Positions 36,267 through 38,938 of a stretch of 64,000 nucleotides of DNA are shown piece by piece. The stretch is from the NCBI GenBank assembly GCA_013287135.1, contig JABDEK010000017.1, forward strand, positions 1 to 64,000, written 5' to 3'. Source of the DNA: Acidobacteriota bacterium (GTDB lineage Bacteria > Acidobacteriota > Terriglobia > Acidiferrales > UBA7541). The first letter of the stretch is position 1. Every line of letters starts with the position of its first letter. The position numbers and the translations under genes are program-made. Below the pieces are notes generated by a model. The model ran no database searches and had not been told where the DNA came from. It worked only from the letters and a program-made list of their open reading frames with translations.

Positions 36267-37454
36267 ATGGCGGGAACGATTTCGGTTGAGCAAATTCACG
36301 CTCGATCTGCTGAGCGCGCCTACGCCGAGACTGCGACGATCCCCTGGTACATTTGGTGCTGCCTGGCGTCTGTGGTTTCCTCTGTGGTCGGAAGCGCCTG
36401 GGACATTTCCTGGCACGAAAGCATTGGCCGCGACTCTTTCTGGACTGCTGCGCACATGCTCATTTATTTGTCTGGCGTGCTGGCTGGAATTTCGTGCGGC
36501 TATCTGATCCTCTCCACTACGTTCCGCAAAAACTCGCCGCTCTACGACGTTTCGATTTCGATGTGGGGATTTCGCGGACCATTGGGCGCCTTTATCTGCG
36601 CGTGGGGCGGCGTCGCCATGATCGCTTCGGCGCCCTTCGACAATTGGTGGCACAACTCCTATGGGCTCGACGTAAAAATTCTGAGCCCACCCCACGTCTT
36701 GCTGGCTTTGGGCATGATCGGAATCCGATTTGGATTGCTGGTAATGGTCCTGGCGGAAATGAATCGTGCCGAAGGCATCTACCGCCAGAGGCTCGAGCGC
36801 ATTTTATTTGTTACCGTCGTTTTTCTGATGGGCATGACGGTCGGAATCGCGCAAGAGTTCACAAACCGTGTATTCATGCACGGAGCAAAGTTTTACCTGG
36901 TGATAATGATCGCCGCGCCCATTTGGATAGCCACCGTCGCATGGGTCGCCAAACATCGCTGGGCCGCCACGATCATGACGGCGATGTACACTGCTTTGCA
37001 CTTGTGTTTCGTTTGGGGGTTCCCATTGATTCCCGCAGAACCCAAACTCGGTCCCGTGTATCAGCACATCACCCATCTCGTTCCACCGGATTTTCCGGCG
37101 CTGTTGATTATTCCCGCTATCGTCTTTGACCTGTTGCGGCAGCGCACCGCTGGTTGGAGCCGCTGGAAACAAGCTGCTATATTGGGAGCAGCTTTTCTCG
37201 TGAGCTTCGTCGCAGTGCAATGGCCTTTTGCCATCTTCCTTATGTCTTCCGCTTCACGAAACGGAATTTTCCAGACCACCAATTTTCCCTATTTTGTTCC
37301 GCCCACATCGCCATGGGTCCGCAATATTTACATTCCCACGGAGCATACTCCCGCGCAATTCTGGATTCGTATGCTGGTCGCGTTGTGCGTGTCGATTCTG
37401 ATGGTGCGTATCGGCATGGCCTGGGGTGAATGGATGCGGCGAATCCGCCGATGA
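36267..37454 (+). CDS. Polytopic membrane protein with two D-x3-H-x12/13-H motifs
   Basis: 395 residues, about nine or ten membrane helices. I do not recognise a named family. A motif occurs twice: WDISWHESIGRDSFWTAAH (D46, H50, H63) and FDNWWHNSYGLDVKILSPPH (D125, H129, H143), each with D and H at the end of one helix and H at the start of the next. The spacings, D-x3-H-x12-H and D-x3-H-x13-H, equal the CuC (Asp156/His160/His173) and CuD (Asn227/His231/His245) sites of PmoC from Methylococcus capsulatus, as I recall them. GGAGAAAC precedes the ATG; the stop overlaps the next ATG (ATGA), so the two products are probably made together. Function is inferred only. Confidence 0.75.
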   Translation: MAGTISVEQIHARSAERAYAETATIPWYIWCCLASVVSSVVGSAWDISWHESIGRDSFWTAAHMLIYLSGVLAGISCGYLILSTTFRKNSPLYDVSISMWGFRGPLGAFICAWGGVAMIASAPFDNWWHNSYGLDVKILSPPHVLLALGMIGIRFGLLVMVLAEMNRAEGIYRQRLERILFVTVVFLMGMTVGIAQEFTNRVFMHGAKFYLVIMIAAPIWIATVAWVAKHRWAATIMTAMYTALHLCFVWGFPLIPAEPKLGPVYQHITHLVPPDFPALLIIPAIVFDLLRQRTAGWSRWKQAAILGAAFLVSFVAVQWPFAIFLMSSASRNGIFQTTNFPYFVPPTSPWVRNIYIPTEHTPAQFWIRMLVALCVSILMVRIGMAWGEWMRRIRR

Positions 37455-38938
37455 AGGAATTCAAGCGTCGGCTAACTCTCCTTTTGATTCTGTTCGTCGC
37501 AGCTGCGATTCCTGCGCTCGCCCACGTGGGCAGCCCGGACGTTTATTACGAAGGCGATGCCGGCCCTTATCATCTCTTTGTCACCGTACGAATCCCGCAG
37601 GTGGTCCCGGGCGTGGCGGAAATCGAAGTCCGGTGCCAGAGCGGCGATGTGAGCGCCGTACAAATCGTTCCATTGCGCTTGAGCGGACCTGGATCTACCT
37701 ATCCACCTACACCGGATTTCGCCGTGCGCTCTAAGGACGACCCGCAATTTTTCACCGGCAGTCTTTGGCTGATGGAATCCGGCGCCTTGCAGGTGCGCAT
37801 CACGGTCGATGGTGCGAAAGGTAAAGGGGAACTGTCCGTTCCGGTGGCTTCGTTTGCGCAGCGCACCTACCCGATGCAGAAGCCGCTGGCCGGAATGATG
37901 ATTGTGCTGATGCTGATTCTGGGTATTGGAGTGATTTCGATAGTCGGCGCGGGCGCGCGCGAAGCCAGCTTGGAACGCGGCGAAACGCCAGGACCCGCGA
38001 GCGCGCGACGCGCTAAGATCGCTATTGCAGTGACGATTATTTTGGTGGCAGGACTTATCTACCTTGGCAAAGCCTGGTGGGGCGCGGAGGACGCAAACTA
38101 CAAAAACCGCGTAGCTTTCTACAAGCCGCCAACAGCGGAGACCACCCTGGAAAACGGTAACCGTCTGGTGATTCGCGCGAAGAGCGAGAACCCCACGTGG
38201 TCGGCCAAAATAAATATGGGCGAAGTAATTCCAGACCATAACCACCTGATGCATTTGTTTCTGATCGAACTGCCGGGCATGAGCCGCATGTGGCATCTTC
38301 ATCCCACGCTTTCAGAGGGCGGCGCATTTGCGGACGATTTGCCGGACATGCCTGCAGGGCACTATGAGGTTTTTGCGGACGTAGTGGATGCGCGAGGATT
38401 CCCATGGACGCTGGTGGGAACCGTCGATCTGCCGCAAATCAACAGTGGCGCCCTACGCGGCGACGACTCCAGTTGGTCCGGAGACACGATCGGTTCACGA
38501 CAACATCAGCTGGTGTCGCAGCTTCCCGACGGTAGCCGAATGATATGGGAGCGCGCAGCCGGTCCGCTGAAGGCCAATACCGCGATGGATTTCAAGTTTA
38601 GCGTACAAGGCAAAGACGGAAAACCAGCGCAAGATTTGGAACCTTACATGGGAATGGCAGGCCACGCGGAATTTGTGCGCTCAGACTTGAGCGTTTTCGC
38701 GCACGTACACCCCGCAGGTTCAGTACCGATGGCGTCACTCGAGATGGCGCAAGCCGGATTGCTGGGCAATATGTCTTCGATGCCGAGCGGGATGGCAATG
38801 GCGCCAACGAGGGGAACGATGCCGGCTCAAGTAAGCTTTCCTTACGGTTTCCCCAAGCCGGGAGATTACCGGATTTTTGTGCAGGTCAAGCGTGCGGGCC
38901 AAGTGGAAACTGGAGTCTTCGACGCTCACGTACAGTAG
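37451..38938 (+). CDS. Periplasmic/membrane protein with N-terminal His and two HxHP domains
   Basis: 495 residues from MKEFKRRL. A signal peptide with AIPALA cleavage would leave histidine as residue 1 (HVGSPDVYYEGDAGPYHLFV). The N-terminal domain of about 120 residues is followed by two membrane helices (MMIVLMLILGIGVISIVGAG and IAIAVTIILVAGLIYLGKAW), then two copies of a His-rich domain: DHNHLMHLFLI...RMWHLHPT, and GMAGHAEFVRSDLSVFAHVHPA, plus a Met-rich stretch. Domain-helix-helix-domain layout and a free N-terminal His resemble PmoB, but the HxH sits in the C-terminal part. Copper handling is an inference. The track start at 37430 lacks sense; 37451 overlaps the previous stop. Confidence 0.75.
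   Translation: MKEFKRRLTLLLILFVAAAIPALAHVGSPDVYYEGDAGPYHLFVTVRIPQVVPGVAEIEVRCQSGDVSAVQIVPLRLSGPGSTYPPTPDFAVRSKDDPQFFTGSLWLMESGALQVRITVDGAKGKGELSVPVASFAQRTYPMQKPLAGMMIVLMLILGIGVISIVGAGAREASLERGETPGPASARRAKIAIAVTIILVAGLIYLGKAWWGAEDANYKNRVAFYKPPTAETTLENGNRLVIRAKSENPTWSAKINMGEVIPDHNHLMHLFLIELPGMSRMWHLHPTLSEGGAFADDLPDMPAGHYEVFADVVDARGFPWTLVGTVDLPQINSGALRGDDSSWSGDTIGSRQHQLVSQLPDGSRMIWERAAGPLKANTAMDFKFSVQGKDGKPAQDLEPYMGMAGHAEFVRSDLSVFAHVHPAGSVPMASLEMAQAGLLGNMSSMPSGMAMAPTRGTMPAQVSFPYGFPKPGDYRIFVQVKRAGQVETGVFDAHVQ

Follow-up and report, generated by a model that had tools for sequence, protein, structure and literature searches.

Can a membrane protein that carries the metal ligands of PmoC be a relative of PmoC when it is encoded with an exported partner and no PmoA, and what might such a pair do? 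The question is raised by two adjacent genes, here called P1 and P2, in a 64,000-nucleotide stretch of an acidobacterial contig (assembly GCA_013287135.1, contig JABDEK010000017.1), referred to as the window. Where the active copper of methane and ammonia monooxygenases lies is under dispute; CuC and CuD, the favoured sites, are both in PmoC, a subunit that is difficult to examine separately from PmoA and PmoB. A PmoA-less PmoC relative with every ligand position could show what these sites do alone, and its family may serve as an outgroup for the copper membrane monooxygenase (CuMMO) family. In addition, a role for the pair would give a first function to a module found in over a quarter of the sampled Gemmatimonadota genomes.

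The gene pair and its conserved motifs

The two open reading frames and their coordinates (Table 1) are those given in an earlier note on this DNA, and P1 has the two motifs which that note had read in it, with spacings of x3 and x12 in D46-H50-H63 (site 1) and of x3 and x13 in D125-H129-H143 (site 2). The corresponding ligands of PmoC are Asp156/His160/His173 for CuC and Asn227/His231/His245 for CuD (PMC12576850), as given in the note. As also claimed, the two sites are separated by 79 residues in the window protein compared with 71 in PmoC; the distance is 71-73 in PmoC/AmoC and 70-71 in five of the actinobacterial relatives described below. Used singly as queries against Pfam, NCBIfam and the PDB, the two window proteins yielded no useful match and no recognised family. 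The upstream flank encodes an ABC ATPase with two nucleotide-binding domains and the downstream flank an E1-dehydrogenase/transketolase protein, both of which look unrelated to the pair, and the close relatives of the window are acidobacterial MAGs from palsa soil.

Table 1 Features of the P1-P2 locus (positions in the window)
Feature	Position	Strand	Basis or remark
ORF1 (P1), polytopic membrane protein, remote PmoC/AmoC homologue	36267..37454	+	395 aa
P1 site 1, D46-x3-H50-x12-H63, CuC-equivalent	36402..36455	+	invariance, alignment with AmoC D-H-H, model helices
P1 site 2, D125-x3-H129-x13-H143, CuD-equivalent	36639..36695	+	invariance, alignment with AmoC N-H-H, model helices
P1 periplasmic loop, E197 to H205	36855..36881	+	family and actinobacterial alignments
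ORF2 (P2), exported membrane-anchored partner	37430..38938	+	502 aa from first ATG; 495 aa from 37451
ATGA overlap, ORF1 stop and likely ORF2 start	37451..37454	+	sequence
H32 of P2, predicted first mature residue	37523..37525	+	preceded by ALA; invariant in aligned homologues
P2 domain 1, residues 32-150, beta domain	37523..37879	+	model; hhalign E 8e-4 against actinobacterial fused domain
P2 membrane hairpin, residues 151-230	37880..38119	+	model helices 151-178 and 189-230
P2 domain 2 with H270, H272, H275, H289, H291	38123..38437	+	invariant in 41 homologues
P2 domain 3 with H412, H425, H427	38492..38935	+	invariant in 41 homologues

In an alignment of 81 P1 homologues with 39-83% identity to the window protein (A1), gathered through whole-genome searches and from 80 loci in the genome collection, all six ligand residues (D46, H50, H63, D125, H129 and H143) were 100% invariant (81/81), so that the free variation which the earlier note had named as telling against its reading was absent. 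W45, W49, G54, R55, D56, W127, W128 and P142 are invariant in the 81 members as well, and six actinobacterial relatives, although much more divergent, keep the six ligand positions in alignment. H205 is invariant across the close family (81) and lost in more divergent members, and E197 is shared with the actinobacterial relatives. The divergent P1 of genome G117, from another acidobacterial family (E 2.7e-81), has neither E197 nor H205 and retains WDIQWHRCIGRDSTWTLPH and FDDWWHRVYGLDVSVFSPPH. Both motifs, in order and within 120 amino acids, occurred in 0 of 916 non-family ORFs compared with 9 of the 9 AmoC/PmoC proteins examined.

P2 adjoins P1 at about 90% of the loci, and the two genes overlap in 50 of the 63 homologous loci where this could be measured. 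For the window itself, the ATGA overlap described in the earlier note holds if ORF2 starts at 37451, which gives the better signal peptide; the program-made ORF starts at the earlier ATG at 37430. Seven loci (L015, L017, L018, L019, L024, L037 and L075) have P1 without an adjacent P2; five of these copies fall in a well-supported clade of eight that includes the gene of the window. In four of the seven assemblies there is another P1 as well, and that one is accompanied by P2. The window's own genome has, at a contig end, an additional incomplete P1 with 47% identity (G000:C94:4-663; L011, L170). In one acidobacterial P1 an in-frame TAG was found (L110/L154, G213:C1:1381464-1382615), possibly reflecting a pseudogene or a sequencing error.

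Predicted structure of P1

The AlphaFold2 model of P1 (pLDDT 91.7) contains approximately 10 membrane helices, a number above that of PmoC, as had been noted. In the model the two sites form two like hairpins: at site 1, helix 27-52 closes with D46 and H50 and helix 61-86 opens with H63, and at site 2, helix 106-132 closes with D125 and H129 and helix 141-167 opens with H143. Arg and Lys are more frequent in the proposed cytoplasmic loops (0.18) than outside (0.08), which places both sites on the periplasmic face. When the model was compared with the PDB by Foldseek, no significant global match was obtained; PmoC/AmoC chains (7s4m, 9cl2, 7yzy and 9leg) were within the top 50 matches, the highest probability among the matches listed being that of 7s4m_C (0.87; E 0.69, rmsd 15 A). 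A search of a viral structure library gave no match.

Relationship of P1 to PmoC and AmoC

Several comparisons support the view that the resemblance of P1 to PmoC reflects homology by common descent and not chance, because profile matches are reciprocal, the alignment stands well clear of shuffled controls and the ligands are fully conserved. First, AmoC was the commonest Pfam match across the 81 P1 members (10 members, best E 9e-5). The best members score 19-24 bits, below the gathering cut-off of 26.7. With the Pfam AmoC model, 297 Acidobacteriota genomes yielded one canonical AmoC, three P1 members and one seemingly unrelated gene. Second, when sequences were ranked by the P1 family HMM, eight of nine AmoC/PmoC proteins came straight after the family's own members and before decoys drawn from the 7,824 ORFs of the homologous loci, and all nine did so with a wider family model. 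In the converse search with an AmoC HMM, at least the first 30 non-AmoC matches all belonged to the P1 family. When the whole genome of the presumed AmoC-bearing acidobacterium, judged from the same contig number and place, was scanned with the P1 model, the sole match (E 0.005) overlapped the AmoC gene.

Third, the profile-profile comparison proposed in the earlier note was run with hhalign against AmoC. The P1 family aligned over 88 columns with the six ligands in register (score 40, E 9e-5), and the wider P1 alignment gave a score of 47 (E 6e-6), compared with scores of at most 22 for 150 column-shuffled AmoC profiles; these E-values are those of single comparisons, with HH-suite probabilities of 56-85%. 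Only about 90 residues are covered by the alignment, and a PDB profile search with the P1 family missed PmoC. PmoC/AmoC (PF04896) is nevertheless the best relative of P1 by both HMM and profile-profile comparison. The sites have the same order and spacing in the two groups (D-x3-H-x12-H and D/N-x3-H-x13-H), the W, R, D, T and P residues around site 1 are held in common, and the placement of the sites in helix hairpins and on the periplasmic side is alike; in site 2, Asn227 of PmoC is replaced by Asp in P1. The suggestion of a remote PmoC relative is thereby supported, and P1 represents a new, apparently undescribed PmoC-related family; word searches of open-access text found no publication on the module. 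Searches of viral contigs found no AmoC.

P2 resembles PmoB in architecture

In the model of P2 (pLDDT 87.6), a helical hairpin separates a first beta domain from two more. As the earlier note had described, the order of a periplasmic domain, two helices and further periplasmic domains is that of PmoB/AmoB, and in both proteins a signal peptide ends directly before a His, in P2 after ALA, which would leave H32 as the mature N-terminus. The idea of a PmoB-like partner holds for these two features and fails for homology. Profile comparison with PmoB detected none (hhalign probability 0.2), and 41 P2 members gave no PmoB/AmoB match in Pfam, the likeness being one of architecture only. Compared with the PDB, the P2 model gave only generic Ig-like matches. 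Domain 1 lacks the His-x-His of the CuB site of PmoB, and alignments of homologues revealed no conserved His in it besides H32. PmoB of Verrucomicrobia likewise lacks the CuB ligands (PMC6572826). After the hairpin, P2 has two His-rich domains, which are of one domain type (hhalign E 6e-6), in contrast to the one plain cupredoxin of PmoB/AmoB.

P2 also shares exported beta domains with His motifs with the YtkA-, FixH- and CopC-type copper-associated domains. However, this likeness is sporadic and weak (weak YtkA and FixH matches in single P2 members only, and a weak CopC-type PDB hint for domain 1), and the membrane partner of P2 is PmoC-like, with no CopD match for P1 reported in the profile searches. 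P2 may be frameshifted in a close relative of the window, where its end is found in a different frame from the rest (L016:10317-10598, L003:91-372).

The pair and the CuMMO family

PmoA (PF02461) was not found in any of 22 genomes examined that bear the pair, of which two are single contigs; this agrees with the earlier statement that PmoA is missing and shows that the pair is not a scattered CuMMO operon. Of the features that mark a CuMMO, the pair has a subunit C in which both ligand sets, CuC and CuD, are complete (Asp for Asn once). Neither the operon nor the 22 genomes contain PmoA/AmoA, P2 agrees with PmoB/AmoB in architecture alone, and of the CuB site, which combines a mature N-terminal His with a His-x-His in domain 1, only H32 is present. 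The pair is thus outside the CuMMOs, because it has no PmoA, no detectable PmoB homologue and no CuB site and P1 scores below the Pfam cut-off. The earlier note's point that this is not a normal methane or ammonia monooxygenase stands, and any CuMMO-like working of the pair would so far be by analogy only. The canonical AmoC/PmoC gene found in Acidobacteriota is at the end of a 3.3-kb contig (L094/L168, G104:C71:2614-3270); PmoA was not found in its assembly, perhaps solely because of the contig end.

Actinobacterial relatives

Relatives of P1 on actinobacterial plasmids were found by tblastn. They match the P1 family strongly (hhalign E 7e-27), and this branch by itself also matches AmoC, with a score of 36 compared with 23 for shuffles. 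The shorter inter-site distance applies to five of the six; in the sixth (L147) the ligand residues are aligned and the spacing is altered. In five, an AHDPGQG segment and a beta domain follow the membrane part in the same chain, and the moderate alignment of this domain with P2 domain 1 suggests a fusion of P1-type and P2-type parts. The plasmid copy of Rubrobacter marinus seems split (L144:8001-9016), with the motif region unannotated and a separate hypothetical gene after it.

At most of these loci the neighbours are genes for Cu P-ATPases, multicopper oxidases, CsoR/CopY-type regulators, CopC, DUF305, YHS and cupredoxin proteins, and most of six control windows from the same plasmids had no copper genes. 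Two of the six were themselves other metal islands (copper and metal in Streptomyces mirabilis, mercury in M. chubuense), so that the copper-island association is only partly specific and is suggestive, not proof.

Possible functions

We lean towards a role of P1-P2 in handling periplasmic copper, and infer all three elements of this reading, namely copper as the metal, a complex of P1 and P2, and the handling role. P1 would hold two tri-residue metal sites where two helix hairpins reach the periplasm, and from the same side the membrane-anchored P2 would offer its free N-terminal His together with its two His-rich domains. P2 could capture periplasmic copper and hand it over to P1, whose membrane sites might hold, oxidise or move it, and the two proteins would then form a small membrane copper module working without PmoA. 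The copper-resistance genes around the actinobacterial relatives are suggestive of such a role. Against it count the seven P2-less P1 loci, the lack of a significant Foldseek match to PmoC, and the lack of a conserved copper gene beside the pair in the Acidobacteriota and Gemmatimonadota loci. Besides P2, no neighbour is conserved in these soil phyla, where the neighbouring gene families are scattered.

Copper handling is preferred over a catalytic role, in which the pair would be a PmoA-less copper membrane oxygenase or oxidase with O2 at the CuD-equivalent site and P2 replacing PmoB; this we regard as possible but doubtful. Both PmoC metal sites are complete in every P1 member, even in the copies without adjacent P2, the non-ligand W, R, D, T and P residues around site 1 are kept and the architecture of P2 is PmoB-like. 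CuD is the currently favoured active site (PMC12576850). However, PmoA, whose helices help to form the CuMMO membrane core, is absent, no conserved redox partner was found nearby, and the actinobacterial relatives lie beside copper-resistance genes and not catabolic genes. Slightly more doubtful still is the broader proposal of a lineage sister to the CuMMOs, a minimal PmoA-less copper membrane oxygenase that is common in both Gemmatimonadota and Acidobacteriota: P1 alone would bear the catalytic copper and P2 would be a PmoB-like feeder. In G117, a single-contig genome, the pair is directly preceded and overlapped by a gene with CxxCH motifs on the minus strand (L169:10718-12037), which resembles a di-haem cytochrome c peroxidase/MauG and is a possible redox partner.

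It is improbable that P1 binds another metal, with the pair acting as a periplasmic module for metals in general: Asp/His sites suit, for example, zinc as well, zinc is seen at the PmoC site in some crystal structures (PMC12576850 discusses zinc occupation) and site 2 has Asp for Asn, but P1 is homologous to a copper-binding protein and its relatives are set in copper islands. It is very improbable that an unrelated membrane protein has acquired two short motifs by convergence. The short alignment, the weak overall fold match and the additional helices could speak for this; against it stand the reciprocal matches ahead of decoys, the far lower shuffles, the conserved non-ligand residues, the identical motif order and the PmoC-like spacing of 70-71 in the divergent branch.

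Distribution

The pair was found in 42 of 150 Gemmatimonadota and 16 of 297 Acidobacteriota genomes, and its acidobacterial bearers include cultured ones such as Acidipila, Granulicella, Bryocella and Silvibacterium. It was also present in the phylum of an Eisenbacteria locus (2 of 47 genomes) and in that of a Binataceae locus (1 of 118). A Pseudomonadota home for L060 was rejected, as its phylum sample is the same Acidobacteriota set. In the tree, the P1 copies of L019 and L029 cluster with acidobacterial copies.
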